Source: Desulforamulus ruminis DSM 2154 (lineage in GTDB: Bacteria; Bacillota; Desulfotomaculia; Desulfotomaculales; Desulfotomaculaceae). From it: 64,000 nt of DNA. Made by a program: the position numbers and the translations under genes. The notes beneath the pieces were generated by a model. The model was given only the letters and a program-made list of their open reading frames with translations. It did not search any database and was not told where the DNA came from. The first letter of the stretch is position 1; every line of letters starts with the position of its first letter. The stretch is taken from positions 3,856,120 to 3,920,119 of the forward strand of contig NC_015589.1 of NCBI RefSeq assembly GCF_000215085.1, in the 5' to 3' direction. Below are positions 28,654 to 48,502 of this stretch, in pieces.

Positions 28654-28692
28654 GATGCCTTCCTCCTGCAGGACCGGCTGTCCCAGCCCGGC

Positions 28693-30494: not shown

Positions 30495-30504
30495 AGGCTT
30501 TCTC

Positions 30505-31491
30505 CTAACTTTTTCTGCTCTTATTTTTTACGTCAATATAAACAGCGATTAGAATCACCAGACCTTTGACAATTAACTGATAAAAATAGGAAACATCCAT
30601 CAGGTTCATGCCGTTATTGATGACCCCGATAATAATGGCGCCAATTAAGGTGCCAAAGATTTTTCCACTGCCGCCGCTCAGGCTGGTTCCACCCAGTACC
30701 GCCGCGGCAATGGCGTCCAGCTCGTAGCCGCTGGCCGCATTGGGTTGGGCCGAATAAAGCCTGGAGGCAAAGATCAATCCGCTGATAGCGGCCATGGAAG
30801 CCGTAATAATATATACCCATATTTTCAGCCGGGCCACGTTAATACCGGCATAAAGGGCCGCTTCCTCATTGCCGCCGGTAATGTATACGCGACGTCCGAA
30901 CTTGGTTTTGGACAAAAGGATGTGGTTGAAAACAAAGAACACCAGCAAAATAATAATGGGAATCTGGATTCCCAGGAAGGAACCGTTGCCTAAAGCTAAA
31001 AAGGTTGGATTTTGAATGGATACAGGCACGCCATCGGTTAAGATATAGGCAATGCCCCTAAAGATTCCCATGGTGGCCACTGTGACGATAAAGGCCGGTA
31101 TGGAGGCTTTGGAAATCAGCACGCCGTTAAAGGCCCCTAAAACCACGCCTAAACCAACGACCATGAGCACCACCAGGATAAAGGGAACATTGCTCTGCAG
31201 CAGTAAGGCCGCCGCCGTTCCGGATAAAGCAATGGTCGAACTCACAGACAGATCAATGCCGCCAACAATTAAAGCAAAGGTCATGCCAAAGGCACAAATG
31301 GCAATGATGGAGATTTGCAGAACAATATTTAACAAATTCCCTACCTTAAAAAAATGCGGGGAGCTGAAGGAGAAAAGAACCACCAGGACGATCAACCCGG
31401 CGAGAATTCCCCCGTAGGTTTTCAGAAAATGAATGCCGGCTTCTTTCCAAGCGTTATTTTTCAGTTCCGTTGAATTTGATAAGTTTGTCAT
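30505..31491 (-). CDS. Sugar ABC transporter permease, RbsC family
   Basis: A 328-residue membrane protein with about ten helices and the family motifs VGGIDLSVSSTIALSGTAAA and DAIAAAVLGGTSLSGGSGKIFGTLIGA. It is the membrane channel of a high-affinity monosaccharide importer. Two base pairs separate it from the ATPase gene. Confidence 0.92.
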   Translation of the reverse strand: MTNLSNSTELKNNAWKEAGIHFLKTYGGILAGLIVLVVLFSFSSPHFFKVGNLLNIVLQISIIAICAFGMTFALIVGGIDLSVSSTIALSGTAAALLLQSNVPFILVVLMVVGLGVVLGAFNGVLISKASIPAFIVTVATMGIFRGIAYILTDGVPVSIQNPTFLALGNGSFLGIQIPIIILLVFFVFNHILLSKTKFGRRVYITGGNEEAALYAGINVARLKIWVYIITASMAAISGLIFASRLYSAQPNAASGYELDAIAAAVLGGTSLSGGSGKIFGTLIGAIIIGVINNGMNLMDVSYFYQLIVKGLVILIAVYIDVKNKSRKS

Positions 31492-31493
31492 CG

Positions 31494-32987
31494 TTATTTA
31501 CCTCCAGTGGCATACAGCATGACTTCATCCTGGGAAGTAGCAGAAGAAACAACTTCTCTAACCACTTTTTTATTGCGCATTACCAACATGCGGTCACTCA
31601 TGAACAGCACTTCGGAAAGTTCCGAGGAAATCATGATAATGCCAACCCCTGCTTGGGACAGTCTCCTCATGATGTTATAGACCTCGTGCTTTGCCCCCAC
31701 GTCAATTCCTCTGGTGGGTTCATCCAGAATCAGAATGTCTGGGTGCGTCTCCAGCCATTTGGCCAGGACGATCTTTTGCTGGTTGCCGCCACTTAGATGA
31801 TTCACCCGCTGCAGAATACTGGAGGTCTTGACATTTAATTCTTTCACCGCCCGGAGGGCCATGGCATTTTCTTTCTTATCGTTTAACAAACCACCCTTAA
31901 CCAGTTTATCAATTACCACCATGGATACATTTCTCTTCACCGTTTCTGAAACCACGAGACCCTGTTCCCGCCGATTCTCGGTGATAAAAGCCATTTTATG
32001 TTTAATGGCGTCCTCTGGCTTGGTGATTTTGGCGTCTTTCCCTTTTATCTTCAGGGTACCTTGTTCCGGCCTGGTTATTCCGAATAAAGCATTGGCCAGG
32101 TCCGAACGGCCTGCCCCTACCAGACCAAATATACCCAGTATTTCACCACTTTTTAAGGCAAAGCTTATATCTTCAAAAAGGCCCTTTTTGCTATAGCCTT
32201 TTACTTCCAACAAGGTTTCTTTACCGATTTCAGAATTCCGTTTGGGGTAAATGTCTTTTAACTCTCTGCCAACCATCATGCGAATCAGGCTGTTGATATC
32301 CGCCTCACTCCTGCTGACGGTTCCAATATAACTGCCGTCCCGTAATACCGTAATCTCATCGGATATTTTCAATAATTCATCCATGCGGTGGGAAATATAA
32401 ATAATGGCCACTCCGCTTTGCTTCAGCTTTTCAATAATGCGGAAGAGGATCTCGGCTTCCCGGCTGCTAAGGGCGGAAGTAGGCTCGTCCATAATCAGCA
32501 CCTCCGCTTTTACCGAGAGAGCTTTGGCAATTTCAACCATTTGTTTTTGAGAAATACTAAGGTCCTTGACCAGGGTTTTCGGAGAAACCTCCATTTCAAT
32601 CTGCTTCAGCAATTCCTTGGCTGCCAGGTTCATCTCTTTATCTTTAATAAAAAAGCCCTTGCTGGGTTCCCGGTTGGCAAAGATGTTCTCCGCAATGCTG
32701 AGGTTGGGGCAAAGGCTTAATTCCTGGTATATAATACTGATGCCGCGGCTCTGGGCATCCCTTGGATTCAGCAGCCGAATCTTTTCCCCTTTAAAAAGAA
32801 TCTCTCCTTCATCCGCCTGGTAAACACCGGACAATATTTTCATTAGTGTTGATTTACCGGCACCATTTTCACCTAACAAAGTATGAACCTGGCCCTTCTT
32901 TACTATGAGATTTACATGGGATAAAGCCGCCACACGGCCAAATACCTTTTTAATATTTTTCATCTCCAGTAAAATTTCGTCCGGCAT
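31494..32987 (-). CDS. Sugar ABC transporter ATPase, RbsA family
   Basis: A 497-residue protein made of two fused ABC domains. The first has Walker A GENGAGKST (about 36-44) and LSISQKQMVEIAKALS with Walker B VLIMDEPTSAL. The second has the degenerate GLVGAGRSD Walker A usual in this family, signature LSGGNQQK and Walker B ILILDEPTRGID. It energises uptake of a monosaccharide. Start ATG with AAGGGGGTG. Confidence 0.95.
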   Translation of the reverse strand: MPDEILLEMKNIKKVFGRVAALSHVNLIVKKGQVHTLLGENGAGKSTLMKILSGVYQADEGEILFKGEKIRLLNPRDAQSRGISIIYQELSLCPNLSIAENIFANREPSKGFFIKDKEMNLAAKELLKQIEMEVSPKTLVKDLSISQKQMVEIAKALSVKAEVLIMDEPTSALSSREAEILFRIIEKLKQSGVAIIYISHRMDELLKISDEITVLRDGSYIGTVSRSEADINSLIRMMVGRELKDIYPKRNSEIGKETLLEVKGYSKKGLFEDISFALKSGEILGIFGLVGAGRSDLANALFGITRPEQGTLKIKGKDAKITKPEDAIKHKMAFITENRREQGLVVSETVKRNVSMVVIDKLVKGGLLNDKKENAMALRAVKELNVKTSSILQRVNHLSGGNQQKIVLAKWLETHPDILILDEPTRGIDVGAKHEVYNIMRRLSQAGVGIIMISSELSEVLFMSDRMLVMRNKKVVREVVSSATSQDEVMLYATGGK

Positions 32988-33007
32988 GAATGCACCCCCT
33001 TAACGAT

Positions 33008-33038
33008 ATACCTTCCCGGCATTTTGCCGGGAAGGTAT
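33008..33038 (-). other. Intercistronic stem-loop between binding protein and ATPase genes
   Basis: ATACCTTCCCGGCA and its exact complement form a 14-bp stem with a TTT loop. No T-run follows. Such stem-loops protect the 3' end of binding-protein mRNA and give higher expression of the binding protein than of the ATPase. Confidence 0.8.
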
Positions 33039-33042
33039 CGAG

Positions 33043-33058
33043 TTTGAATCGTTTCAAA
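33043..33058. promoter_or_regulatory. LacI-type operator inside sugar operon
   Basis: TTTGAATCGTTTCAAA, a near-perfect palindrome, shares TTGAATCGTTT with the operators at the head of the operon. It lies 18 bp after the binding protein stop. Confidence 0.55.
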
Positions 33059-33076
33059 TCAACAGGTTAATGAAGG

Positions 33077-34027
33077 TTACTTTCTTTCTCCCTCTTTCGT
33101 AAACACACCCGGTGTAATGGGCACTACTTTTTCCACTTGTTCGCCCTTCAGGATCTTCAGTGCGGTAACAAGGCCTTCTTTACCCATTTGGTCGGGGTAC
33201 TGAGTGATTACGGCCACAAAGGATTTTTCACTTTTAACGGCGTTTCTCGCTTCTTCCATGCCGTCGAAGCCAATCACCTTCACTTGATCTTCTTTTCCGG
33301 CCGATTTAACCGCCGCTACGGCAGCCAGCGCCGCATCATCCCCAAAGCCAAAAATGCCGTTTAAGTCACCGTTGGCCTGGAGCATATTCTGGGCTGCGCT
33401 TAAAGCCTCCGGCCGGGTAATGCCGGGCTGGATAGCAACAATTTGAATGTCCGGATATTTGGCCAGGGATTCTTTAAATCCGGTTACACGGTCGATAACA
33501 GACTGTACCGTGGGGTAATCAATCACCGCCACTTTGCCCTTACCGCCTAATACCTTGGCCATTTCTTCCCCGGCAATTTTTCCGCCGGTGAGGTTATCGG
33601 TCGCCACGTGGGCATCGGTCTCAGCTCCTACCGCCGGAATATCTACGGTAATAACGGGAATGTTGGCCGCCTTGGCTTTATTAACAGCGGCGGTTACGCC
33701 CTTGGAGTCCACCGGGCTGAGAATAATGGCGTCCACACCCTTGGTAATAAAATCTTCAATATCGGAAATTTGCTTATTAAGATCCTGGTTGGCAATGGAT
33801 ACGTTTAAAGTTACACCCTGGGCTTTTGCTTCCGCTTCCATGGCATTTTTAAGGGATACATAGAACGGGTGCTGCTGGGTTAACAAGGAAGCGCCGATGA
33901 CAATTTCTTGCTTGTCCGACCCGGCGTCTTTATTTTCCTTTTCCGCTTCATTGCTGCCGCAACCGCTGAGCACAACCAAACCTAAAATAAGCATGAAAGT
34001 TAAAGCTAATTTACCAAACTTTTTCAT
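33077..34027 (-). CDS. Sugar-binding lipoprotein, RbsB family
   Basis: A 316-residue binding protein with a lipobox (LVVLSGC, Cys near residue 23) and the Peripla_BP_4 pattern SLLTQQHPFYVSLKNAMEAEAKAQG and VDAIILSPVDSKGVTAAVNKAKAANIPVITVD. It captures the substrate for the ABC importer at the outer membrane face of the cell. ATG with AAGAGGGG. An ordinary ribose specificity is not supported, because no ribokinase or ribose isomerase is nearby. Confidence 0.93.
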   Translation of the reverse strand: MKKFGKLALTFMLILGLVVLSGCGSNEAEKENKDAGSDKQEIVIGASLLTQQHPFYVSLKNAMEAEAKAQGVTLNVSIANQDLNKQISDIEDFITKGVDAIILSPVDSKGVTAAVNKAKAANIPVITVDIPAVGAETDAHVATDNLTGGKIAGEEMAKVLGGKGKVAVIDYPTVQSVIDRVTGFKESLAKYPDIQIVAIQPGITRPEALSAAQNMLQANGDLNGIFGFGDDAALAAVAAVKSAGKEDQVKVIGFDGMEEARNAVKSEKSFVAVITQYPDQMGKEGLVTALKILKGEQVEKVVPITPGVFTKEGERK

Positions 34028-34175
34028 TTTAACCCCTCTTTCCTACCGAAATAAATTGTTATGGGATGTGAAATTGCAAAAATCCGGCTGTTCTATTCTC
34101 TTTTCATCAAATAAGCCTATTCCACCCCTCTCCTAAAGTAATATTGAATACCGAATAATGTATACTCAACTTAGG

Positions 34176-35177
34176 CTAAAACAGGGTTTTAACCGAATCC
34201 GTAGCAATCAGAGAGGTCTTCAATCTCTGAATTTGCGGAAACCGGCTGAAGTCCCCGCCTATTCTTTTTAACAATATTTCCGCCGCCTGGATGCCAATCT
34301 CTTTCGAGGGCTGCACCACCACGGATATGGGAGGATTCAGCATTTGAAAAAGCTCTGTTTGATCATATCCGCACAGGGAAACATCCTGCCCTATTTGGAG
34401 GCCCTTTTCCAGCATCAGCCTCATGGTATTGACGGTGATGGGATAATTGGTGGTGAAAATGGCCGTAGGCCGGTCCGGCAAACTAATTAACTGATGAAAA
34501 GCATCAATGCCGCCATCTTTTTTATATTGGGTGTGAATAATATAGTCCTCATTCACTTCAATATGGTAATCATTCAAGGCCCGCAGATAACCCATTAAAC
34601 GTTCCTGAGCGGTGTAAATCTCCTGGGGTCCGGCAATAATGCCAATTTTTTGATGGCCTTTATTAATGATCATCTCCACCGCTAAATAGGCTCCATTGAC
34701 ATTGTCCGCCACAACCGCATCCAGCTCACAGTCTTTAACCAGCCGGTCAATTAATACCACCGGGGTTCCATTCCCGGTTACTTTATCCACATTAAATTCT
34801 GCCGAAGTCACCGGCATGGCAATGATGCCATCCACACATTTGTTTTGTAAAAAGTTAATTTTCTCCCGCTGCAGCTCCAGCTTATCATTTGAGCTGCAGA
34901 TCAAAATGCTGTAGTTCAGAGGTTCCAGAACCTCTTCAATGCCTTCGATGACCTGGGTGCAAAAAATATCGCTGATACGGGGGATTAATACACCCACCGA
35001 GTAGGTTTTGTTGGTTCTTAATCCTCTGGCTATGGGGTTAAACTTAAAATCCAGGGTTTGGATTGCCTGTTCAATCCGGGTCTGATTTTCTTCTTTAATG
35101 GTGTATCCATTCAGAAAGCGGGATACGGTCCCTACCGATACTGAAGCAAGTTTAGCAACATCTTTTATGGTGGCCAT
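34176..35177 (-). CDS. LacI-family repressor of sugar operon
   Basis: A 333-residue repressor. HTH: ATIKDVAKLASVSVGTVSRFLNG (residues 2 to 24), followed by a periplasmic-binding-protein-like sensor domain. It is the first gene of the operon it probably controls and is autoregulated through two sites downstream of its own promoter. The start is the ATG with GGGGGTAAG; the frame is open 12 codons upstream. The ligand should be the transported sugar or its phosphate. Confidence 0.9.
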   Translation of the reverse strand: MATIKDVAKLASVSVGTVSRFLNGYTIKEENQTRIEQAIQTLDFKFNPIARGLRTNKTYSVGVLIPRISDIFCTQVIEGIEEVLEPLNYSILICSSNDKLELQREKINFLQNKCVDGIIAMPVTSAEFNVDKVTGNGTPVVLIDRLVKDCELDAVVADNVNGAYLAVEMIINKGHQKIGIIAGPQEIYTAQERLMGYLRALNDYHIEVNEDYIIHTQYKKDGGIDAFHQLISLPDRPTAIFTTNYPITVNTMRLMLEKGLQIGQDVSLCGYDQTELFQMLNPPISVVVQPSKEIGIQAAEILLKRIGGDFSRFPQIQRLKTSLIATDSVKTLF

Positions 35178-35200
35178 CGGCTTACCCCCGGCATTGAATT

Positions 35201-35283
35201 TAAAACGATTCAATTATTATTTAATATATTATTGAATCGTTTTATTTTATAAATATCATATATTTCAGAATATATTGAGTCAA
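35201..35283 (-). promoter_or_regulatory. Promoter and paired LacI operators of sugar operon
   Basis: Read leftward, TTGACT (35283-35278) and TATGAT (35260-35255) have a 17-bp spacer. Just downstream, ATTGAATCGTTTTA (35231-35244) and its inverted complement (35201-35214) form two operator-like sites with centres 32 bp apart, the usual arrangement for a LacI-type repressor that blocks initiation. Confidence 0.8.
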
Positions 35284-36445: not shown

Positions 36446-37540
36446 CTAATCCTCCGGCTGCAACTCCTGAGGATTGGGCAATCGGCGCTGCTTTTCCATC
36501 TCCAATCCCTTTTCCGCATGCTGCCATAAATCCGGCATGGTGGCGCCGTCCCGGGGGAACAGGGCCGTTGAACCCAGCACATCCAGTTCCTTGTTAATTT
36601 CCTTCAGGGAATTTTTGAGAAATTCTCCCAGAGTAGCCTTTGTTTGCTCCAGGTTATTGCATTCATGAAGCATGATAATGGCAAAAACATTTTGCGGCAG
36701 CTTAAACAAAAGGTTGCCCCCGCACAGGTTGCGAAGAATTTTAGCCGATTGATTCATCGTCATTTTACCGTTGCCAAAGCCATTTTGGGATACAATGAGT
36801 TCCATGCCCTCAATGCTGAATAAAATTAGACCCAGGCGTTTCCCTTCTCTGCCGGCTTTGCTTACCAAACGGGTTAACGTATCGCTAAAATGCCTGATAT
36901 TATAGATTCCAGTTAGATAATCTTCGCTGCTAAGAAATTTAAACTTATTTAGTTCCTCCTTATAGCCGGCGGATATTTCCAGCATTCTCAGAAAGATCAG
37001 CGCTGCCGCAACATCCACCAGACTGCGGTGCAGGAACATCACGCTGAAAAAATTATCCCAAACTTCTTTGCTCAATATGAAGTAGCCTAAAATATCATAA
37101 ACAATTTCAATGGCCAGGACCGCCAGGGTTCCGTTTACTTTGTTTATTTTTCCCTTTAAAAAGATATGAATCAATCCCGCCACCAAGCCAATAATCACTG
37201 TAGCGACGCTGGTATATAGGGATATCTCGGTTTGTTGAGTAAACCGGATTAATCCGCTGATCACCCCGGTTCCCAAACCCACCACCGGCCCAAACAGTAT
37301 CCCTCCCAGGATGGGGCCCATTAATCTCAGGCTTACGATACCGGGGCCATAACTATAGCCAAATAACACGCCTAAAAAACTGATAAAACTAAAATATAAT
37401 ATGTAGTAAATGGCAGGATACTTAATTTTGGCAATTAAATTATCCGAGATTTTATAAAAATTGAAAATCCAAGCTACCGTAAACATAAAACACAGGTTTA
37501 AAATTAAATTTTTTAAGATTTCCATGTCAATTGAAAACAT
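36446..37540 (-). CDS. 5TMR-LYT membrane protein with degenerate GGDEF domain
   Basis: A 364-residue protein. Residues 1 to 190 are five or six membrane helices with LGVLFGYSYGPGIVSLRLMGPILGGILFGPVVGLGTGVISG, the 5TM receptor (LytS-YhcK) pattern. Residues 200 to 350 look like a GGDEF domain (LSSEDYLTGIYNIRHFSDTLTRL, then LGLILFSIEGM) but the GGDEF signature is replaced by KLPQNVFAII and the metal aspartate by SIEG. It is therefore probably inactive as a cyclase and may bind a ligand or partner. It overlaps the LuxR gene by 14 bp, so the pair likely works together. Confidence 0.75.
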   Translation of the reverse strand: MFSIDMEILKNLILNLCFMFTVAWIFNFYKISDNLIAKIKYPAIYYILYFSFISFLGVLFGYSYGPGIVSLRLMGPILGGILFGPVVGLGTGVISGLIRFTQQTEISLYTSVATVIIGLVAGLIHIFLKGKINKVNGTLAVLAIEIVYDILGYFILSKEVWDNFFSVMFLHRSLVDVAAALIFLRMLEISAGYKEELNKFKFLSSEDYLTGIYNIRHFSDTLTRLVSKAGREGKRLGLILFSIEGMELIVSQNGFGNGKMTMNQSAKILRNLCGGNLLFKLPQNVFAIIMLHECNNLEQTKATLGEFLKNSLKEINKELDVLGSTALFPRDGATMPDLWQHAEKGLEMEKQRRLPNPQELQPED

Positions 37541-38585
37541 GATAACCTCCCGGCCTATTAAAAGACCTGATGAGCTGATTTCTATTTTTAACGGACAATT
37601 TCTTAAAAATATTATTAATATGTGTTTTTACGGTTTCTATGCTGATGAATAATTGATCGGCAATCTCCTGGTTGGTGTAGCCATATAGAATAAGATTGGT
37701 AACCTGCCTTTCCCTGTCTGTTAAAAATCTCATTAAACTTTCCTGTTCGATAAAAAGATCCGAGGTGATTTTTTGCAGCAAGTGGATAAAAAGGGGCTGA
37801 TCCATATAAAATCTCAAATAAGTTGTGATTTTATATAGATCAGGTTCAATAAATACCGTCGTTTCCTGTTGCTCCGGCGGCTTTTTATGGGCTAAGAAAT
37901 ACTTTTTTATATTGGCGGATACCTCGGCCAGCCTCTCTACCAGTTCCTTATTTTCTTCTTCCAGCTCAAAACCTTTAATATACACAATCTCCATATTGCT
38001 ATTGAACACCAGGCTGCTTCTGTCACTCATCCCCGGCATGTTATGAATAAAGTTTTCGCAATATTGATGTTGTTCCTTTAGTTCAATGTTGAGCAGACAA
38101 GAGGTCAAAAAGGGAGCCAAGTATTGAAGCTGCTTAACATCCAATTGACTAAAGTTTTGATTTTTATCGTCTCGGATAAAGGTTAGATAGCCAAAATTTT
38201 TTTCCTGCCGATAAAGTATGGAGGATAAAATATATTTATAATTTTGCGGCTCCATAAATTTTTTAAAGAAATCGGTTTTATAACGGCCCTCCCATTGACA
38301 ATCCGAAAGCCTTATCACCGTACGTTCCTTCTTTTTTAAGGCCCTTAGTACCGGATTCATCAGCCAATAGGTTTTGTTATAGTCATGATAATTCTGGCTG
38401 TTCATATTCCGGGAATAGAAGATTAAATGACCATACTCATTAATATTGGCTGCAAAGGCCTCCTGAAAGGGTAAAATCTCTTCCAATTCATCAAAGAGCT
38501 TAGTAAAAAAGGTCTGGCGGTCCTGTATGGGGATTAGACTAAGAACGATGCTATTGATCTGTTTCATTCGATTTATCTTAGTCAA
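37527..38585 (-). CDS. LuxR-type regulator with N-terminal sensor domain
   Basis: A 352-residue regulator. Residues 285 to 345 are a LuxR HTH (FLTDRERQVTNLILYGYTNQEIADQLFISIETVKTHINNIFKKL). The N-terminal 250 residues resemble a GAF/autoinducer-type sensor with no known motif. The start is TTG with GGGGGGATTGG. It is translationally coupled to the degenerate GGDEF membrane protein, which may act as its input. Confidence 0.8.
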   Translation of the reverse strand: MTKINRMKQINSIVLSLIPIQDRQTFFTKLFDELEEILPFQEAFAANINEYGHLIFYSRNMNSQNYHDYNKTYWLMNPVLRALKKKERTVIRLSDCQWEGRYKTDFFKKFMEPQNYKYILSSILYRQEKNFGYLTFIRDDKNQNFSQLDVKQLQYLAPFLTSCLLNIELKEQHQYCENFIHNMPGMSDRSSLVFNSNMEIVYIKGFELEEENKELVERLAEVSANIKKYFLAHKKPPEQQETTVFIEPDLYKITTYLRFYMDQPLFIHLLQKITSDLFIEQESLMRFLTDRERQVTNLILYGYTNQEIADQLFISIETVKTHINNIFKKLSVKNRNQLIRSFNRPGGYHVFN

Positions 38586-39369: not shown

Positions 39370-40881
39370 CTAAGCAGTCAATTTTTTCTCTTTCCGGTTT
39401 CTCCACATGGGGAACAAAATGGTGAACCCCAGCATCAGGATACAGCACAGCAGCGCGATACAGCTAATGGGACGGGTAAAGAAAATGGTCCAGTCATTGG
39501 AGTAGCTGATCATGGTGGTCATGAAGTTTCGTTCCGCCATAACCCCCAGGATAGACCCCAGTACCATGGGTGCAATGGGAAAACCGTAGCGATCCATGAA
39601 ATATCCGGCCATACCAAAGAAAATCATCATCCACACATCGGTGATATTATTTCTTATGGTGAAAGCGCCGATAAAACACAATACCATAATAAAGGCGGAG
39701 ATGACCGCTTCCGGCGCATCCAATACCTTCACAAAGGGTTTTACCGCCAGGTAGCCGATTAATCCCATCAAAGCCAATCCGATAAACATGGAAGCAAAAA
39801 TGGCGTAAACCATTTCGGGCATGCTGGTAAAAATCTGCGGACCCGGCTGAATACCGTGCAGCAGGAAGGCTCCCAGGATTACGGCGGTTGCCCCGCTGCC
39901 GGGGATTCCTAAGGTTAAGAGGTGCAGCATAGCCCCTCCCACCGAAGCCGTTGCCGCAGACTGAGAAGAAACAATCCCTTCCGGCGCGCCCTTGCCCATG
40001 TTATCTCTGTTTTTGCCCAGCATTTTTTCCACCCCGTAGGAAACAAAGGACGCCACCGTGGCTCCCGCACCGGGCGCCGCCCCGATAAAGGTTCCTACAG
40101 AAATCCCCCGGACAAAAGCCATGGATCTTTCTCGAAATTCTCTTAAAGAGGGCAAGGTTGTTTTAATGGTTCCCGCCTGTTCCAGGGTGGGGGAAGTAAA
40201 CCCTTCTTCCAACCGGGTCAGTATCTCACCCAGGGCATAGGCCCCCACCATAACGGTCAGATAATCAATGCCGTCCCGGAGCAGTGAGGTTCCGAAAGTG
40301 AAGCGCTCCGCCCCGTAGATGTCATCAATTCCCACCGTGGCAATCAGCAAGCCGATACACAAGGAAATGACCGCCCGGGGAATGGATTTGGTGCCTAAAA
40401 TAATCACTCCGCATAAGCCCAGCAGGACAATGGAAAAATATTCGGGTGTGGCAAAGCTTAAAGCAAATTTGGCAAAGGGTTCGGACACCATGACCATAAA
40501 TACGGCCGCCACCAGCCCCCCGCTCATGGCAGCATATAGGGCCCACCCCAGGGCTTTTGCCGATTCCCCCTGCCGGGTCATAGGATACCCGTCCCACAAC
40601 AGGGGAACATGAATGGGCTCCCCCGGGATTTTAAACAAAATGGAGGTAAACGCCCCTCCGTAGGTCCCGGCGAGATAAACCGCCGTTAACAACACAATGG
40701 CTTGGGTGGGTTCCATGGAGTAAGTAAAGGGAAGCAGCAGCACTACCCCCATCACCAGAGTCAAGCCGGGCAGGACCCCCGCGATCAAGCCTACGATCAG
40801 GCCGATCACAAGCACCGCCAGCATGGTTGGGTTCAGTACATGGATAAAGCCAACCGCCAAATTACTTAAAATATCCGCCAT
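39370..40881 (-). CDS. tctA: Tripartite tricarboxylate transporter large permease
   Basis: A 503-residue membrane protein with about 11 or 12 helices. LIAGVLPGLTLVMGVVLLLPFTYSM near the start, GTYGGAFTSILFKIPGEP, and the internal repeat GTFIGAAPGAGATVASFVSYGVEKM plus LGIPGSGATAVILGAFLLHGIQPGP are TctA signatures. It is the main transport subunit of a solute-binding-protein-dependent secondary importer. It is transcribed away from tctC and tctB, although all three share a duplicated promoter module. Here it most likely carries a sulfonated substrate, inferred from the adjacent catabolic genes. ATG with GGAGGGGG. Confidence 0.93.
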   Translation of the reverse strand: MADILSNLAVGFIHVLNPTMLAVLVIGLIVGLIAGVLPGLTLVMGVVLLLPFTYSMEPTQAIVLLTAVYLAGTYGGAFTSILFKIPGEPIHVPLLWDGYPMTRQGESAKALGWALYAAMSGGLVAAVFMVMVSEPFAKFALSFATPEYFSIVLLGLCGVIILGTKSIPRAVISLCIGLLIATVGIDDIYGAERFTFGTSLLRDGIDYLTVMVGAYALGEILTRLEEGFTSPTLEQAGTIKTTLPSLREFRERSMAFVRGISVGTFIGAAPGAGATVASFVSYGVEKMLGKNRDNMGKGAPEGIVSSQSAATASVGGAMLHLLTLGIPGSGATAVILGAFLLHGIQPGPQIFTSMPEMVYAIFASMFIGLALMGLIGYLAVKPFVKVLDAPEAVISAFIMVLCFIGAFTIRNNITDVWMMIFFGMAGYFMDRYGFPIAPMVLGSILGVMAERNFMTTMISYSNDWTIFFTRPISCIALLCCILMLGFTILFPMWRNRKEKKLTA

Positions 40882-41062
40882 ATTATTCCCCCCTCCGGGA
40901 TTTATTCAAATACGCTATCACGGTTTCATCCTCCGTATTAGTAAAATGGATATCCCACCAGGATCGTTAGCACCACGCCAAATAGAAGATTCCGCTGATC
41001 CCTCCCTCCTTAGCAGAAACGATTAATCGTCTTTTTACTCCTGGCCAAATTTGGTTGGGAGT

Positions 41063-41114
41063 ATTTTAGCCATTATTAATTTTAGTTTGAATAGCTCTTA
41101 AGGTGGATTTTTCC
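41063..41114 (-). promoter_or_regulatory. Leftward promoter module of tctA
   Basis: Read leftward: activator-like box (GGAAAAATCCACCTTAAG, 41114-41097), -35 TTCAAA (41091-41086), 17-bp spacer, -10 TAAAAT (41068-41063). It matches the module before tctC over about 60 bp. Confidence 0.6.
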
Positions 41115-41439
41115 CGTCCTCCGTGCCGCTGCGGCCAATTTCATCTTGGACAACTTTAAGGAAAAAGCCCCTTGTTTTTCTTTATCCCGCGGACTTCAAG
41201 GACAGATGGAAGCGTGACAAAAAAAGAACCCCTTCGGTGCTCGGAATTATCTTTTGGCAAACAGATTTTTCCGGGCTTATTTAGAATCCATGGTCTAATC
41301 CGGTCAGGCTGCTTGGAAAGTCCTTTTTCTTTTGTCATTTACGCACTTTCCTGTTTAAAAGGATTATTTTCTATATTCAGGCCTGGATGAAGGGACAAGA
41401 TTGTCACTGTAAAAATTCTGTTAACCCTTTTTTGCCGCC
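41115..41439. other. Noncoding gap between divergent tct modules
   Basis: This stretch of 325 bp between the two promoter modules contains no credible gene; the open frames are short and lack ribosome sites. It may serve as regulator-loop or spacing DNA. Confidence 0.6.
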
Positions 41440-41490
41440 GGAAAATCCACCTTAAGGGCTATTCCCAGTAAAAACAAGAATCGCTAGAAT
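41440..41490 (+). promoter_or_regulatory. Rightward promoter module of tctCB-xsc operon
   Basis: The box GGAAAATCCACCTTAAGG (41440-41457) is followed by -35 TTCCCA (41462-41467), a 17-bp spacer and -10 TAGAAT (41485-41490). It is the mirror copy of the tctA module. Further CTTAAG cores lie at 41506-41511 and 41545-41550. Confidence 0.6.
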
Positions 41491-41592
41491 ACCCCCAAGC
41501 AAAGGCTTAAGGAAAAACCAGGGGGTGATGCTTAAAAAGACCGGCTTAAGATCCATGGGGTAATGAAGGTCAAGCAAAAAGGAGGTAGGAAA

Positions 41593-42567
41593 ATGAAGAA
41601 GCTGCGGAGGGCTTTGGTCGCACTCTCCCTTTTACTCCTGGCAGTTTGTTTAAACGGATGTGGTGGATCGGAAGAACCGGCCACCGCTCAAAAAGCAAAC
41701 TACCCGGAAAGACCCATTGAGTTTATTGTTCCCTGGGGACCCGGCGGCGGAGCGGATCAATTGGCCCGGTTAGTGTCTAAAGAAGCTGAAAAGGAATTAA
41801 AGGTTTCCCTGCCGGTGATTAATGTGCCCGGCGCCACCGGCGCAACGGGCATGGCCAAATTACTGGCGGCAGAAGCCAACGGCCAGTCCATATCCGTTTA
41901 TATTGCCGATACCCATGCCACCATGAATACCGGAAAAGCAACCTGGAAACTGGAGGACTTTACCCCCATATGCATCATGCTGAAATCCCCTTCCTATCTG
42001 TTTGTAAAGGCCGACAGTCCCTTTAAAACCTGGGCGGACTTTGAAAAAGCCGCTAAAGAAAATCCGGGTAAATTTAAAGTGGGCATCCTGGGAGAAGGAA
42101 GCCTGGACGATGTTACGCTCAGTTACCTGGAGTCAAAAGGGATTAAAGTGACCGGCGTGCCTTTTCCCAGTCCCGGCGAGCGTTATACGTCCATACTGGG
42201 CGGCCATGTGGACTTGCTTTATGAACAGGCGGGAGATGTGCGCCAATACCTGGAGAACCAGCAAATCAGACCGCTTATCATCTTTAATGAAGAACGGGAT
42301 CCGGCCTTTAAAGATGTCCCCTGTTCCAAAGAACTGGGTTATGAAATCTACTTGCCTCAATTCCGTTCCATCATCGTAAAGGCGGGTACCGACCCGGAAA
42401 AGGTCAACATTCTGGCAGAAACCCTTAAGAAGGTTTATGACACGGCGGAGTACCAAAAATTCCTGCAGGATCAATACGCCTCGAAGGACAGTTATTCCGG
42501 GCCCGAAGATACCAAGCTTTATCTGCAACAGGAATTAGATAATATGAAAGCTCTGCTGGCAAAGTAG
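41593..42567 (+). CDS. tctC: Tripartite tricarboxylate transporter binding lipoprotein
   Basis: A 324-residue extracytoplasmic binding protein with a lipobox LNGC (Cys23) and the TctC motif YPERPIEFIVPWGPGGGADQLARLVSK, followed by PVINVPGATGATGMAKLLAAEANGQ. It captures a small anion and hands it to TctAB. First gene of a six-gene unit with tctB, xsc, sauS and the ligase genes. ATG with AAAAGGAGG 6 bp upstream; the open frame begins ten codons earlier. Sulfoacetate is the predicted ligand from the pathway. Confidence 0.92.
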   Translation: MKKLRRALVALSLLLLAVCLNGCGGSEEPATAQKANYPERPIEFIVPWGPGGGADQLARLVSKEAEKELKVSLPVINVPGATGATGMAKLLAAEANGQSISVYIADTHATMNTGKATWKLEDFTPICIMLKSPSYLFVKADSPFKTWADFEKAAKENPGKFKVGILGEGSLDDVTLSYLESKGIKVTGVPFPSPGERYTSILGGHVDLLYEQAGDVRQYLENQQIRPLIIFNEERDPAFKDVPCSKELGYEIYLPQFRSIIVKAGTDPEKVNILAETLKKVYDTAEYQKFLQDQYASKDSYSGPEDTKLYLQQELDNMKALLAK

Positions 42568-42590
42568 AGCTTTAAGGTGAGGTGATACCC

Positions 42591-43142
42591 ATGCCAGGGC
42601 GGACGTTACGGAAAGCGGTTACAGAAAACGCATTTACACTGGTTCTTTTGGCGGCGGCAGTCCTCTTGTTTCTCAGCACCAACCATTTTGTCTATGCGGC
42701 CAAACCGGGCCGATTGGGCCCGGATTTTTGGCCCAAGACCGTGCTGATACTGGTTATGATTATGTGCCTGATGGAGATTGGCCAGAGCTTTCTTAGGAAG
42801 CCCACTAAACCTCCTGAAGAGATTGCAGTGGTTGATGATGAAGCTTCCCAAGAGTCCAAGCAAAAATACCCGCGGCTCCTTTACCTGGGCAGCGCGCTGA
42901 CCTTAGGCTATGTGGGACTGGTCAGTACTCTGGGGTTCTTTTTAACCACTTTTTTATATCTGGTGGCCTTTATGTACGTAGGCCGGTACCGGCAGACTGC
43001 CGTAATCTGGATCAGCAGCTTATTAGGAACCGTTTTTCTCGTGTTTATATTTGTTAAGGTGGTTTATGTTTCCCTGCCCATTGGAAAAGGGCCCTTTGCT
43101 GAAGTAACTTATCTCATTTACAGGTTGTTAAGCATTCAGTAA
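42591..43142 (+). CDS. tctB: Tripartite tricarboxylate transporter small permease
   Basis: A 183-residue protein with four transmembrane helices (about 13-32, 46-64, 95-125, 128-150), the TctB pattern, including GRLGPDFWPKTVLILVMI. ATG with AAGGTGAGG. It lies 23 bp after tctC and 48 bp before xsc. Confidence 0.85.
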   Translation: MPGRTLRKAVTENAFTLVLLAAAVLLFLSTNHFVYAAKPGRLGPDFWPKTVLILVMIMCLMEIGQSFLRKPTKPPEEIAVVDDEASQESKQKYPRLLYLGSALTLGYVGLVSTLGFFLTTFLYLVAFMYVGRYRQTAVIWISSLLGTVFLVFIFVKVVYVSLPIGKGPFAEVTYLIYRLLSIQ

Positions 43143-43190
43143 CCAGTGAATGCTGAAATAAATCCTTTGAAAGCAACGGAGGTATGAAAA

Positions 43191-44930
43191 ATGACCAAGC
43201 TAAAAATGACCCCCAGCGAAGCCATTGTTGAAACACTATTGCAGGAAAAGGTAGAACACGTTACCGGGATTGTTGGCTCGGCCTTTATGGATATGCTGGA
43301 TCTCTTTCCCACAGCCGGGATTCATTTTATCCCGGTGCGCCACGAACAGTCTGCGGCCCATATGGAGGACGCTTACACCCGGGTCACGGGTAAATGCGGC
43401 GTCTGCGTGGGACAAAACGGCCCCGGAATTACCAACATGGTTACCTCGGTGGCGGCTGCCAATATGGCTCACACTCCCCTGGTTGTTATATCCCCTTCTG
43501 CGGGTACTCCCACCATCGGCTGGGACGGCTTCCAGGAGTGTGACCAGGTGTCTGTTTTCCGGGCCATTACTAAAGCCACGGTACGGGTTCCCCATCCCAA
43601 AAGGGCTGCCGACTGCCTGAGAACGGCCTTCCGTATCGCTTATGCCGAACGGGGTGCGGTGCTTTATGACATTCCCCGAGATTATTTTTACGGCGAGCTG
43701 GAGGAACGCATCCTGGCTCCCCACCAATATCGTGTGGATGCCCGAGGCTGCGGTTCCCGGGAGTCCCTGAACCGGGCCGTCGAACTGTTGGCCCAGGCCC
43801 AACGCCCGGTCATTGTATCCGGCCGGGGCGTTGTAGATTCCCAGGCCAAAGACATCGTGGCCAAAATTGCCGAACACTTGACCGCCCCGGTTGCGGTTAC
43901 CTACCTCCATAACGACGGCTTTTACGCCGATCATGAACTGATGGTGGGACCCATCGGGTATATGGGCTCCAAAGCCGCCATGTATTCCCTGCAGGAGGCG
44001 GACGTCATTCTGGCTATCGGAACCAGGCTTTCCGTGTTTGGCACCTTACCCCAGTATGACATTCACTATTTCCCGGAAGACGCCAAGATCATTCAAATTG
44101 ACATTAATCCCAAGCACATTGCCCGGACTCATCCCGTTGAGGTAGGTATCGTCGGCGATGCCAAAGAAGCCAGCCTGGAAATCCTAAAGGGCCTGGAGGC
44201 CAAAATTCCCCAGCCGCAAATCAATGAGGAGCGTTTAAACCAGATTAGCGCCCGGCAGCAGGATTGGGAAGAAGAAACCGTCAACCTGGCCATGGTGGAC
44301 GGCAACCCCATCAATCCCCGGCGGGCGTTATTGGAAATTCAAAGGGCCCTGCCCCAGAATGCCATTGTAGCCACAGACATTGGCAACGTGGCCTCCACCG
44401 CCAACACCTACCTGCGTTTTCGGGATAAGGGCATGCACATCGCCGCTTTAACCTTTGGTAATACCGGCTTTGCCTACCCCGCCGCCCTTGGTGCGCAATT
44501 GGGCCGCCCGGAGGCTCCGGTGGCGGCCATTATTGGGGATGGCGCCTGGGGTATGAGCCTGCATGAAGTCAGTACGGCGGTTGAACAAAATCTGCCCGTG
44601 GTGGCTTGTGTGTTTAGAAACGGGGCCTGGTGCGCGGAGAAGAAAAATCAGGTGGACTTTTATAACAACCGTTTTGTGGGTGCGGACATTCCCAATCCCG
44701 AAAGCTTTGTCCCGGTGGCCCAGGCCATGGGCGCCCAGGGCATCCGTGTAGACAGTCCCAGCCAGGTGGGAGAAGCCCTGGACCAGGCCTTGAAGAGCCG
44801 GAAGCCTACGGTTCTCGAAATTGTTTGTGACGGTACGCAGCTTGCTCCTCCCTTCCGGAAGGATGCCCTTGCCCTGCCCACCCGCCACCTGCCCCAATAT
44901 TCTCACCTGGATTATAAAAACTGGGAGTAA
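43191..44930 (+). CDS. xsc: Sulfoacetaldehyde acetyltransferase
   Basis: A 579-residue thiamine diphosphate enzyme that converts sulfoacetaldehyde plus phosphate to acetyl phosphate and sulfite. The N-terminus [63 protein letters not shown] and [14 protein letters not shown] are characteristic of Xsc rather than acetolactate synthase or sulfopyruvate decarboxylase. The catalytic Glu is E52, and the cofactor motif is [23 protein letters not shown] near 447. It sits between a tct transporter and a SauS-like dehydrogenase, which supports the assignment. The sulfite product would suit a sulfite-respiring host. Confidence 0.87.
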
Positions 44931-44958
44931 CATCACAGGAGCTAGGAGGTAATCGCCC

Positions 44959-46377
44959 ATGAGTGAACGGGATGTTCAAGGAATCGTCGCGGAATTAGTG
45001 CGCAAGGCCCGTGGGGCCATGGAGCAAATTAAAGACTACAGCCAGGAACAAGCCAATGAATTGGTCCAGGCGGTTGCCTGGGCTATTTACCGGCAGGACC
45101 GTGCGGAGGAGTTGGCCAGAATAGCCGTACAGGATACCGGCCTAGGCAAATATGAAGATAAGGTCCTTAAAAATCGGCGTAAGACCTTTGGCGCTTTGCG
45201 GGACTTATTGGACCCTCAGGCCAAATCCGTAGGCATTATTAAAGTGGATCGCAAAAAAGGGATTCTGGAAATTGCCAAACCCGTAGGCGTTGTGGCGGCC
45301 GTATGTCCTTCCACCAACCCCGGAGCAACACCGGCCAATAAATCCATGTTTGCCCTTAAAAGTAAAAACGCCGTCATTCTCGCCCCCTCCCCCAAAGGAG
45401 CCACCACCTGCGCCAAATTTCTTGCCTATGTCCATGAAGAATTGGCCAAGATCCAGGCGCCCCAAGACCTGGTGCAGATGCTTCCGGCACCGGTTTCCAA
45501 GGAATTAACCTATGAGTTGATGAAGCAGGCCGATATGGTGACGGTTACAGGATCCGGCAAAAACGTGGCAACGGGACAGTCCTGCGGCACTCCCAATGCC
45601 TGCGTCAGCGCGGGAAATGTGGTTTCCATCGTAGATCGCACGGCAAGCCTCGGGGATGCGGCCTCCAGGATTACCAAAAGTAAAACTTTTGACTATGCCA
45701 CCAGTTGTTCCAGCGATAACGCCATTGTTGTGGAAGCCGGCGTCTATGATCAAATGATTGAAGAACTAAAAAAACAGGGCGCTTATTTATGCAATGAACA
45801 GGAGAAAGCTCAACTGCAAAAAGCCATGTGGGATGAAGCCACGGGCAAACGCAAGGGAGCAACCACGGCAAAATCCGCAGAGGTTATGGCCGCAGCAGCC
45901 GGTTTTACCAATCCCGAGGCCAAACAAGCCTCCTTCTTTCTGGTTGAAGAAACGGGAGTGGGTCGCTCTTATCCTTTTTCCGGGGAAAAACTGGCACTGG
46001 TGGCGGCCTTATACAAAGTCAAGGACTTTTCCGACGCACTGGAAATTACCAAAAGGATTCTCAATTATGTTGGGCGGGGCCATTCCTGCGGGTTGCACAC
46101 CACCGATGAATCCCATATTGAACGCATTGGCTTTGAAATGGATGTCTGCCGTATCATGATCAACCAAATACAGTGCTTTGGTAACGGAGGCAATTTTAAT
46201 AACGGTATGAATTTTACCCTTTCCATGGGCGGCGGGACCTGGGCGGGGAATAATATCGGGGATAACTTGAATTATAAACATTTTATGAATATCACCAAAG
46301 TATCCAGGACCATCCCGGAGGTGATCCCCTCGGAAGAAAAACTTTTTGGTTCCTATTGGTCCAAGTACGGAAAATAG
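44959..46377 (+). CDS. sauS: Acylating sulfoacetaldehyde dehydrogenase, SauS-like
   Basis: A 472-residue CoA-acylating aldehyde dehydrogenase of the EutE/AdhE class. The CoA-acylating motif SVGIIKVDRKKGILEIAKPVGVVAAVCPSTNPGATP is intact, and the catalytic cysteine is C250 (ATSCSSDNAIVV). The C-terminal end GYQ-like GGTWAGNNIGDNLNYKHFMNITKVSR is also family typical. Placed directly after xsc and before an acyl-CoA ligase pair, it most likely reduces sulfoacetyl-CoA to sulfoacetaldehyde. Acetaldehyde or another aldehyde is an alternative if xsc were misassigned. AGGAGGTAATCG precedes the ATG. Confidence 0.75.
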   Translation: MSERDVQGIVAELVRKARGAMEQIKDYSQEQANELVQAVAWAIYRQDRAEELARIAVQDTGLGKYEDKVLKNRRKTFGALRDLLDPQAKSVGIIKVDRKKGILEIAKPVGVVAAVCPSTNPGATPANKSMFALKSKNAVILAPSPKGATTCAKFLAYVHEELAKIQAPQDLVQMLPAPVSKELTYELMKQADMVTVTGSGKNVATGQSCGTPNACVSAGNVVSIVDRTASLGDAASRITKSKTFDYATSCSSDNAIVVEAGVYDQMIEELKKQGAYLCNEQEKAQLQKAMWDEATGKRKGATTAKSAEVMAAAAGFTNPEAKQASFFLVEETGVGRSYPFSGEKLALVAALYKVKDFSDALEITKRILNYVGRGHSCGLHTTDESHIERIGFEMDVCRIMINQIQCFGNGGNFNNGMNFTLSMGGGTWAGNNIGDNLNYKHFMNITKVSRTIPEVIPSEEKLFGSYWSKYGK

Positions 46378-46393
46378 CAAAGGAGGGTGAGAC

Positions 46394-47512
46394 ATGAAGC
46401 TATTTGAGTATCAGGCAAAGATGCTTTTTCAGGAGCAAGGCATTGCCGTTCCCGCAGGCAGGATCATGGATGATCTAAATCAATTGGAAGAGACCGTCTC
46501 AAGCATCGGTTTTCCTTGTGTTCTTAAAGCCCAGGTTTTACAAGGGGGCCGGGGCAAGGCCGGTTTAATCGCCAAGGTGGCTTCCATGGAAGAAGCCCGG
46601 ACCCAGGCCCAGCGCATTTTTGACTTAACCAGCCGGAAAGTATTGGTCGAAAGCGCGGTTGAATTTGATCATGAGATCTACCTATCCATTACCGTTGATC
46701 CTGTCTCCGGATCAGCCATGATCATGGCTTGCCTAGAAGGGGGCGTTGAAATTGAAGAAATTGCCCGGACCAGCCCGGAAAAAATAGTTGTGGAATATGT
46801 TGATTTAGCGGTGGGTCTGATGACTTATCAGGCTTATAACCTGGTGTATGCCTTGGGACTTCAAGGTGAACAGGCCAAACAGGGCTGCCAGTTATTAATG
46901 AAACTATATGAGGTATTCCAAAAATATGAGACCGACTTGGTGGAAATCAATCCCTTGATGATTACCAGGGAGGGCCGTCTTATCGCCGCCGACGGCAAAG
47001 TAAGCCTGGATGATAATGCTTTATTCCGGCAGGGCCGTTTCCAAATCACCAGAGAATATTTTAATAATGATTTAGAATATGAAGCGGCCCGGGAAGGCAT
47101 CCCTTACATCCAGTTTGACGGGGATATCGGCTTAATGTGTGCCGGCGCGGGCTTAACCAATATTATTTTTGATTTAATTCATTATGCCGGTGGAACGGTG
47201 GCCAATTATCTGGAATTTGGCGGCCCCAATTATCGCAAAGCCCATCAGTGCATGGAGATGATGCTCAGCAGCAATCCCAAAGTAATACTCATATCCACCT
47301 TTGGCACCATTGCCCGGGCGGACGTTATGGCCCAGGGGATTGTGGAAGCGGTGAAAGATTTAAAACCAACCATTCCCATCATCACCGCCATTCGGGGCAC
47401 CGGGGAAGAAGAAGCCATGGCCTTACTAAAAAGTGTGGGGCTAGAACCGCTTAATGATACCGAGGAAGCGGTTAAACGAGCAGTGGAATTTGCAGGGGGT
47501 GGTTCCAAATGA
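46394..47512 (+). CDS. ADP-forming acyl-CoA ligase, beta (SucC-like) subunit
   Basis: A 372-residue ATP-grasp protein like succinyl-CoA synthetase beta: KLFEYQAKMLFQEQGIAVPAG, the nucleotide motif QGGRGKAG (50-57), DLVEINPLMI (about 184-193) and CAGAGLTNIIFDLIHYAGGTVANYLEFGG. It overlaps the alpha-subunit gene by 4 bp. The pair would make an acyl-CoA at the cost of ATP to ADP. Context suggests the substrate is sulfoacetate rather than succinate. AAAGGAGGGTGAG precedes the ATG. Confidence 0.82.
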   Translation: MKLFEYQAKMLFQEQGIAVPAGRIMDDLNQLEETVSSIGFPCVLKAQVLQGGRGKAGLIAKVASMEEARTQAQRIFDLTSRKVLVESAVEFDHEIYLSITVDPVSGSAMIMACLEGGVEIEEIARTSPEKIVVEYVDLAVGLMTYQAYNLVYALGLQGEQAKQGCQLLMKLYEVFQKYETDLVEINPLMITREGRLIAADGKVSLDDNALFRQGRFQITREYFNNDLEYEAAREGIPYIQFDGDIGLMCAGAGLTNIIFDLIHYAGGTVANYLEFGGPNYRKAHQCMEMMLSSNPKVILISTFGTIARADVMAQGIVEAVKDLKPTIPIITAIRGTGEEEAMALLKSVGLEPLNDTEEAVKRAVEFAGGGSK

Positions 47513-48408
47513 GCATCATTATTCATTCCCATACCCGCATTCTGGTACAGGGAGCTACAGGAAAAGAAGGGCGCTTCTGGGTAAAACACATGATTGATTA
47601 CGGAACAAAGGTGGTCGCCGGCGTGACTCCCGGCAAAGAAGGTGAATTGGTGGAGAATATACCGGTCTACCATACGGTTCGCCGGGCTATGGATCATCAT
47701 CCGGTGGACGCCTCCCTCCTTTTTGTTCCCCCGCGCTTTGCCATGGGGGCCATTTTTGAAGCTCTAGATGCGGGAATTAAAACCATCGTAGTCACTGCCG
47801 ACGGCATCCCTTTACATGAGCAGGTGCAGATCCGCAGAGCGGCTAAATCCGTTGGGGCTACGGTCATCGGCGGAAATACCACCGGCATAATCTCCACCGG
47901 GAAATCAATGATGGGATTTTTCCCCTTCTGGCTGGAACGGGTCTATAAACCGGGCCGCATTGGCGTCATGACCCGAAGCGGCTCGTTAACCAATGAAATT
48001 ACGGCCCAAATCGTTAAGGCCGGCTTCGGGTCAACCTCCATTGTAGGTGTCGGGGGCGACGCGGTTCCCTTTACACGTTTTGCAGAACTGCTGCCCCTGT
48101 TTCAGGAAGATCCCAACACTGCTGCGGTGGTGATGATTGGCGAGGTTGGCGGAACCATGGAAGAGGAAGTTGCCGAATCAATGAAAAACGGCTTGTTTAC
48201 AAAACCCCTCATCGCCGTCATGGGCGGCAGAACCGCACCTAAAGGAACCAAGATGGGTCACGCCGGGGCAATTATTACAGCCGGCAAAGGAACGGTTGAC
48301 GATAAAATTCAGGCTTTAACCCAGGCCGGAGCACTGGTTGCCGACCGCCCCAGCATGGTTGGCACCCTGCTGCAAAGGAAACTGGGCAGTCCTTGCGTAT
48401 CCCTGTAA
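47509..48408 (+). CDS. ADP-forming acyl-CoA ligase, alpha (SucD-like) subunit
   Basis: A 299-residue partner of the SucC-like subunit. The phosphorylated His lies in MGHAGAI (His251). The CoA-binding start VQGATGKEGRFW and RSGSLTNEI are family motifs. The loop that in ordinary SucD reads N-C-P-G is GGNTTGIIST here, and the following stretch is MMGFFPFWLE instead of the usual IGIMPG, so the acyl site is altered. This argues against a plain succinyl-CoA ligase. Together with sauS and xsc it completes a predicted sulfoacetate route. Terminator follows. Confidence 0.8.
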   Translation: MSIIIHSHTRILVQGATGKEGRFWVKHMIDYGTKVVAGVTPGKEGELVENIPVYHTVRRAMDHHPVDASLLFVPPRFAMGAIFEALDAGIKTIVVTADGIPLHEQVQIRRAAKSVGATVIGGNTTGIISTGKSMMGFFPFWLERVYKPGRIGVMTRSGSLTNEITAQIVKAGFGSTSIVGVGGDAVPFTRFAELLPLFQEDPNTAAVVMIGEVGGTMEEEVAESMKNGLFTKPLIAVMGGRTAPKGTKMGHAGAIITAGKGTVDDKIQALTQAGALVADRPSMVGTLLQRKLGSPCVSL

Positions 48409-48463
48409 ATCTCCTCTTCTCACAGATTTTTACCTTTCTTCTTAAAAGGTCATCCGTGCAAAG

Positions 48464-48502
48464 AAACCTATGGGCAGCTAAACCCCATAGGTTTTCTATT
48501 TG
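48464..48502 (+). terminator. Terminator of sulfonate operon
   Basis: AAACCTATGGG and CCCATAGGTTT pair around a 9-base loop and are followed by TCTATTTG, 56 bp after the last gene. Confidence 0.85.

Follow-up and report, generated by a model that had tools for sequence, protein, structure and literature searches.

In Cupriavidus necator, an aerobe that does not respire sulfite, the ligase SauT is AMP-forming, and the coenzyme A (CoA)-acylating sulfoacetaldehyde dehydrogenase SauS is followed by Xsc, the sulfoacetaldehyde acetyltransferase. Strain H16 is described with SauS and with the permease SauU of the major facilitator superfamily (MFS; PMC12625764). Bilophila wadsworthia is described with an ADP-forming ligase, SauCD, together with SauS, TauF and IseG (PMC12890257), and with a putative tripartite tricarboxylate transporter (TTT), SauXYZ (PMC12625764). 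Here we analyse a gene cluster of Desulforamulus ruminis DSM 2154 that lies in a stretch of 64,000 nucleotides (contig NC_015589.1, positions 3,856,120 to 3,920,119, forward strand; hereafter the window). In the cluster, which spans 39370–48495, tctA on the minus strand is divergent from tctC-tctB-xsc-sauS-sauC-sauD on the plus strand, which are followed by a terminator. We read it, with a probability of roughly 0.85, as a sulfoacetate catabolic unit that would feed sulfite respiration.

By gene content and description, the locus resembles the Bilophila system in its TTT importer, its predicted two-subunit ADP-forming ligase, its SauS and the proposed use of sulfite as respiratory acceptor; as in systems of that type, a SucCD-like ligase distinct from SucCD stands with SauS and a TTT in one cluster. 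It differs in that its Xsc would cleave sulfoacetaldehyde directly, whereas Bilophila uses IseG/IslA, none of which was recognised in D. ruminis. With Cupriavidus it shares Xsc as the C–S-cleaving enzyme after SauS, but neither SauT nor the MFS permease SauU is among its seven genes. SauSCD with a TTT is also predicted, from metagenomes, for the marine sponge symbiont OTU3, whose metagenome-assembled genome has xsc as well, but with taurine genes and outside the sauSCD cluster (PMC12625764). The pairs SqwD-SqwKL (sulfo-transketolase pathway) and HpfX-HpfYZ (Enterococcus gilvus) likewise join an acylating dehydrogenase to a two-subunit, ADP-forming ligase acting on a sulfonate acid; these run, however, toward acid and ATP, and the accessible text of the sources tells of no Xsc or TTT there (PMC11489063, PMC12890257). 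Many sulfate and sulfite reducers are described as lacking Xsc (PMC6453916).

The initial annotation had proposed uptake by a TTT, ADP-forming activation, SauS, Xsc and sulfite respiration, and this remains the best reading, carried by dsrA and ackA in the host, by the lack of a recognised isethionate lyase, by conservation of the gene set and by ligase loops that differ from those of SucCD. Its claim of a new gene combination, with no described Firmicute operon of exactly this set, was too strong, ADP-forming SauCD, SauS and TTT having already been described in Bilophila. Ligase and transporter are no new kinds of part; what appears to be undescribed is their union with Xsc in Gram-positive sulfate reducers: in the open-licence literature searched, we found no description of SauCD, SauS and TTT joined to Xsc in one cluster of such organisms, nor any text joining sulfoacetate with Desulfotomaculum, and the word sulfoacetate is absent from the D. 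ruminis genome paper (PMC3569383).

Predicted pathway and enzymes

In the predicted pathway, TctC would bind sulfoacetate and TctAB would import it; SauCD would convert sulfoacetate, ATP and CoA to sulfoacetyl-CoA, ADP and phosphate; SauS would reduce the thioester with NAD(P)H (two electrons) to sulfoacetaldehyde, freeing CoA; and Xsc, with phosphate, would cleave sulfoacetaldehyde to sulfite and acetyl phosphate. The latter would give back one ATP through acetate kinase, and dissimilatory sulfite reductase would take sulfite to sulfide with six electrons, both enzymes being encoded elsewhere in the genome. The net conversion would be of sulfoacetate and eight electrons to acetate and sulfide, with zero substrate-level ATP gain. 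With Xsc in place of a reductase and an oxygen-sensitive isethionate lyase, no acetaldehyde would be formed; the isethionate route would, by our count, take an equal net number of electrons, but via acetaldehyde and an oxygen-sensitive radical enzyme. With some caution, we favour the fuller proposal of a third, hybrid route in Gram-positive sulfate reducers, in which a Bilophila-type module of uptake and ADP-forming activation (TTT, SauCD and SauS) is joined to the Xsc end of aerobic and taurine pathways. Such a route would be ATP-neutral and need no glycyl radical enzyme; the D. ruminis xsc would have been recruited from the taurine xsc of its own lineage, and a promoter duplicated in mirrored form would tie the two divergent transcripts to each other.

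Xsc (43191–44930, plus strand), a predicted thiamine diphosphate (ThDP)-dependent, desulfonating enzyme, and SauS (44959–46377, plus strand) are assigned by curated equivalog cut-offs. In the NCBIfam scan, Xsc scores 826.1 bits against a cut-off of 676.4 for TIGR03457 and 842 against 620 for NF005713, and SauS scores 691.7 bits against a cut-off of 600 for NF047625. The SauS motif TSCSSDN, which contains the presumed catalytic cysteine, is common to the window protein and the two relatives looked at. In the SauS tree, from which two further sub-threshold Bacillota SauS rows were left out, the window protein forms a starred clade with that of genome G446 and two Desulfosporosinus rows, and seven sub-threshold Bacillota rows fall outside it. 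The window Xsc is 87% identical to the taurine-cluster Xsc of the same genome and stands beside it in the Xsc tree (support 94/93, below the starred level), which suggests that the window xsc arose by recruitment of, or gene conversion from, the host's own taurine xsc.

The ligase, predicted to act on sulfoacetate with ADP formation, has a beta subunit, SauC (46394–47512, plus strand; ATP-grasp_2 and Ligase_CoA domains), and an alpha subunit, SauD (47509–48408, plus strand; CoA_binding and Ligase_CoA domains). Their top NCBIfam matches are SucC and SucD, both below cut-off (330 versus 370 bits and 316 versus 336 bits, respectively), and a separate SucCD is encoded at 2276 kb of the host genome, its SucC being 36–38% identical to SauC. 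We aligned 15 rows, seven from xsc or sauS loci (six distinct genes, one gene of genome G145 entering twice) and eight of SucC (seven of the genus and Escherichia coli K-12). All seven SauC-type rows carry FG[TL]IARAD and N[FY]LEFGG, where all eight SucC rows carry FGGI[TV]RCD and NF[LM]D.GG; the window SauC has the loop FGTIARAD at the first of these positions. Similarly, 7/7 SauD rows have [RK]SGSLTNE together with an inserted WLE or WLD (RSGSLTNE and WLE in the window), where 8/8 SucD rows have RSGTL[ST]YE. The motif MGHAGAI, which we take to be the phosphohistidine motif, is kept in all 15 SauD/SucD rows, and the loops that differ presumably border the succinate (acyl) site, as in solved SucCD structures. 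Trees also set SauCD apart from SucCD, those of SauC and SauD bearing a long-branch warning. By scores and loops, SauCD is classed as a ligase distinct from succinyl-CoA synthetase.

Other ThDP enzymes were seen near xsc-like or sauS-like genes. At three Bacillota loci (L059, L061 and L062), a second ThDP enzyme, 29–30% identical to Xsc, directly precedes the true xsc; the one that was scanned passes none of the cut-offs shown. At nine alphaproteobacterial loci (L083–L090 and L094), a SauS-like dehydrogenase (40–42% identity) is followed by a ThDP enzyme 28–30% identical to Xsc, of which the one scanned has acetolactate synthase as its best match, over no cut-off shown, with a QuiC-like gene behind it that is likewise below cut-off.

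Conservation of the gene set

The cluster is no chance neighbourhood, because its gene set recurs in Desulfosporosinus. In Desulfosporosinus fructosivorans 63.6F (NZ_SPQQ01000002), xsc-sauS-sauC-sauD-(DJ-1/PfpI)-tctC-tctB-tctA lie on one strand, an order seen again by tblastn, with identities to the D. ruminis proteins of 78% (Xsc), 73% (SauS), 67% (SauC), 78% (SauD), 52% (TctC), 40% (TctB) and 58% (TctA). This cluster has the same set as that of D. ruminis but differs in its tctCBA downstream on the same strand, in the DJ-1/PfpI gene between and in a GntR-UTRA regulator gene upstream. The gene set is not confined to the D. ruminis genome. An uncultured Desulfosporosinus carries sauS-sauC-sauD-(DJ-1/PfpI)-tctC-tctB-tctA, also seen again by tblastn. 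Both came from a scan of named genomes with two short peptide patterns, which returned 15 loci (no census) and of which the nine alphaproteobacterial loci make up 9/15; at the other 13 of the 15, tblastn gave no match to SauC, SauD or the TTT, any Xsc match staying at or below 30% identity. Gene counts in relatives combine ORF (open reading frame) calls with tblastn, since in G+C-rich loci longer antisense ORFs had masked genes from the ORF calls.

Of 398 genomes sampled from the phylum, Xsc passes its cut-off in 11 and SauS in two (the host and G446); within the class, SauS passes in 1 of 113 genomes. An xsc within a few kilobases of a SauS-like gene occurs in 4/398 genomes, and sauCD is present in three of these four. 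In G446, an MFS gene comes after xsc-sauS-sauC-sauD; G196 has a SauS-like gene below cut-off, a transposase gene and xsc-sauC-sauD-tctA-tctC; and G154 has xsc with a SauS-like gene below cut-off, no sauCD match being found in the 19 kb fetched. Elsewhere in the genus (nine genomes), the best SauC match reaches 42% identity over part of the protein. G+C content is 51.2% in the cluster, compared with 45.2% and 43.9% in its flanks, but only the genes of TctA and Xsc exceed by more than 2 standard deviations the third-position G+C of 44 other window ORFs, which were taken mechanically. A CarD gene follows the cluster; in two of three congeners, CarD adjoins genes found at other places of the window, whereas in the third congener it is the sole window match, and no insertion point can be read from the comparison. 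The patchy distribution would fit horizontal gain of the cluster but does not demonstrate it.

Host background and alternative readings

D. ruminis DL (DSM 2154) is described as using sulfate, thiosulfate or sulfite as growth acceptor, and lactate, pyruvate, ethanol or alanine as growth substrates (PMC3569383). A genome search placed DsrA over its cut-off at two sites, 387 kb and 3789 kb, each adjoined by a weaker match to the DsrA model that is probably DsrB, and recovered acetate kinase, AckA, at 505 bits. A taurine route has been described for this organism, with Desru_0589, Desru_0590 (Xsc) and the acetate kinase Desru_1705 acting on taurine-derived acetyl phosphate (PMC3569383); the Desru_0589/0590 cluster has the same kind of Xsc and the same fate of sulfite as the pathway proposed here, but starts from taurine instead. 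In our search, the second xsc of the genome lies at 608 kb, clustered with an alanine dehydrogenase gene, a class III aminotransferase gene and ATP-binding cassette (ABC) genes whose best matches are sulfonate/taurine types below cut-off.

Five glycyl radical enzymes of the pyruvate formate-lyase (PFL)-like kind were found in the host, four of which pass cut-offs, as 4-hydroxyproline dehydratase, HpsG, CutC and pyruvate formate-lyase, and the fifth of which passes that of the broad PFL2-3 model only. IslA is reported to require Arg189, Gln193 and Arg678 (PMC8473560). In an alignment of four of the five enzymes (pyruvate formate-lyase was left out), with columns matched by eye, HpsG has RSSIQ and LDLR at the positions matched to these residues and the fifth enzyme is without them. 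No isethionate lyase of the IslA/IseG type was recognised among the five, and no isethionate-lyase model was among the NCBIfam hits, a library that may hold none. This leaves Xsc as the one plausible desulfonating enzyme of the pathway. The HpsG-type dihydroxypropanesulfonate enzyme (L130, 5574–8066, at ~482 kb) scores 1585 bits against a cut-off of 1000 for NF048011, and the fifth enzyme (L131, 7373–9742, at ~2158 kb) has activase-like and 3-hydroxyacyl-CoA-dehydrogenase-like neighbours, names judged from the sequence letters. A sulfolactate-lyase candidate has also been reported in D. ruminis (PMC6278857). With this candidate, the HpsG type, the taurine genes and the sulfoacetate set, D. ruminis looks like a broad sulfonate respirer.

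Three other readings of the cluster were weighed. The reactions of SauS and SauCD are both reversible in principle, and SqwD and SqwKL operate in the acid-forming direction (PMC11489063, PMC12890257); with a taurine cluster in the same genome, taurine-derived sulfoacetaldehyde might be taken by SauS to sulfoacetyl-CoA, from which SauCD would make ATP and sulfoacetate for export, as SqwD-SqwKL do. We consider such a reverse run very unlikely: the operon's own Xsc and the TctC binding protein mark uptake and cleavage, SauS lies over its cut-off and apart from the seven sub-threshold Bacillota rows, and the nearest sugar genes (window 27.7–35.2 kb) resemble tagatose or ribose types, no wider search for sulfo-transketolase genes having been made. 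TTT systems carry many acids, and the substrate might be a different sulfonate acid, such as 3-sulfopropionate, or simply a dicarboxylate, xsc then being an incidental neighbour. A SucCD-like ligase, HpfYZ, is indeed reported to be specific for 3-sulfopropionate (PMC11489063). An acylating SauS and an Xsc, however, make sense only via sulfoacetaldehyde, and both D. fructosivorans and G446 keep xsc-sauS-sauC-sauD side by side, so that this reading seems even less likely. The least likely, in our judgement, is a Bilophila-like conversion of sulfoacetaldehyde to isethionate and its cleavage by a glycyl radical lyase, with the cluster's Xsc serving taurine: the host does have five glycyl radical enzymes, among which NCBIfam typing alone cannot exclude a lyase, but four are typed otherwise, the fifth does not have the matched residues that HpsG keeps, and taurine has its own aminotransferase–xsc cluster.

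Several observations nevertheless weigh against a sulfoacetate unit feeding sulfite respiration. The specificity of the TTT cannot be read from its sequence, no regulator gene adjoins the operon, and SauCD matched no curated model for a sulfoacetate ligase in the NCBIfam scan, its substrate being predicted from gene context and from the loops that differ from SucCD. These loops are no proof of sulfoacetate uptake, because the pair in G145, where no SauS match was found in the stretches fetched, carries them too; that pair lies behind an oxoacid:ferredoxin oxidoreductase, ~7.5 kb from xsc. The contig of the uncultured Desulfosporosinus has no xsc, starting 1 kb before sauS, and sauSCD may work there without it. 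Finally, no phosphate acetyltransferase passes its cut-off in the D. ruminis genome (best 58.8 versus 311.2 bits), and acetyl phosphate would therefore probably leave via acetate kinase alone. The G145 pair might belong to a sulfopyruvate or other sulfonate route; at that locus (L124, 403–6758), it is followed by a CoA-transferase III.

Sulfoacetate is described as a product of the fermentation of sulfoquinovose, from plant sulfolipid, and of taurine nitrogen assimilation (PMC11489063, PMC12625764). A rumen sulfate reducer respiring sulfoacetate would, if the proposed pathway is true, link plant sulfolipid to the formation of sulfide in the grazing animal. An xsc beside sauS-sauC-sauD could serve as a genetic marker of the route, and surveys by isethionate lyase alone would miss the cluster. 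Strain DSM 2154 is cultured and is listed at biosafety level 1 (PMC3569383), and the prediction is open to a simple growth experiment.

Layout, mirrored repeat and neighbouring genes

All seven ORFs of the set given in the initial annotation, including the divergent tctA, are intact at their coordinates, and the short spacing and single terminator noted there are borne out. The gaps are 14 nucleotides (nt) between tctC and tctB, 48 nt between tctB and xsc, 28 nt between xsc and sauS and 16 nt between sauS and sauC, whereas the last two genes, sauC and sauD, share 4 nt; Shine-Dalgarno-like stretches precede the cluster genes, that of tctB being the weakest. The predicted intrinsic terminator (48463–48495, plus strand; 12-pair stem, 9-nt loop) has a fold z-score of −2.74, one of 200 shuffles folding equally well; a simple terminator scan was limited to loops of up to 8 nt and therefore did not list it.

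The three transporter genes are tctA (39370–40881, minus strand; PF01970, 468 bits; 57.6% identity to D. fructosivorans TctA), encoding the large membrane subunit; tctC (41593–42567, plus strand; PF03401, 107 bits; 52.4%), encoding a lipoprotein-type solute-binding protein; and tctB (42582–43142, plus strand; PF07331, 60 bits; 40.4% over 161 residues), encoding the small membrane subunit. The tctC ORF opens at 41563, but an AGGAGG stretch and a lipoprotein-like signal favour the start at 41593, which is probably the one used. D. fructosivorans has all three transporter genes downstream on one strand; most simply, the D. ruminis lineage would have inverted tctA, which a mirrored copy of the operon's promoter would now drive.

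A mirrored repeat, with 62-nt arms that are 82% complementary and lie 330 nt apart, places one arm before each divergent gene: upstream of tctA at 41050–41111 (minus strand), with a promoter-like site at 41091–41063, and upstream of tctC at 41442–41503 (plus strand), with a promoter-like site at 41462–41490. The two sites are in the same register within their arms; promoter-like and terminator-like sites are no commoner in the window than in shuffles. A conserved 24-nt block with 22 identical bases, most of which falls within the tctA arm (41090–41113), occurs twice in the window against an expectation of zero. The mirrored duplication of one promoter region probably places the operon and tctA under common regulation. 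A multi-copy mobile element was considered as the source of the repeat and rejected, no third copy being found in the genome search. With up to three mismatches allowed, neither the taurine-cluster stretch nor the D. fructosivorans locus showed the block, so that no regulon can be proposed.

Two genes away from the sulfoacetate genes lies a gene for a LuxR-type regulator (window 37527–38585), for which no full-length relative was found in eight other genomes of the genus. A sulfosugar link via the window's 27.7–35.2 kb region was considered and dropped, the matches being to hexose/1-phosphofructokinase, ketose-bisphosphate aldolase, a tagatose-kinase-like protein and a ribose-type ABC transporter. 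The sugar cluster itself (27724–35213) comprises genes for an RbsR-like regulator, the ribose-type ABC transporter, the tagatose-kinase-like protein, the ketose-bisphosphate aldolase and a hexose kinase.

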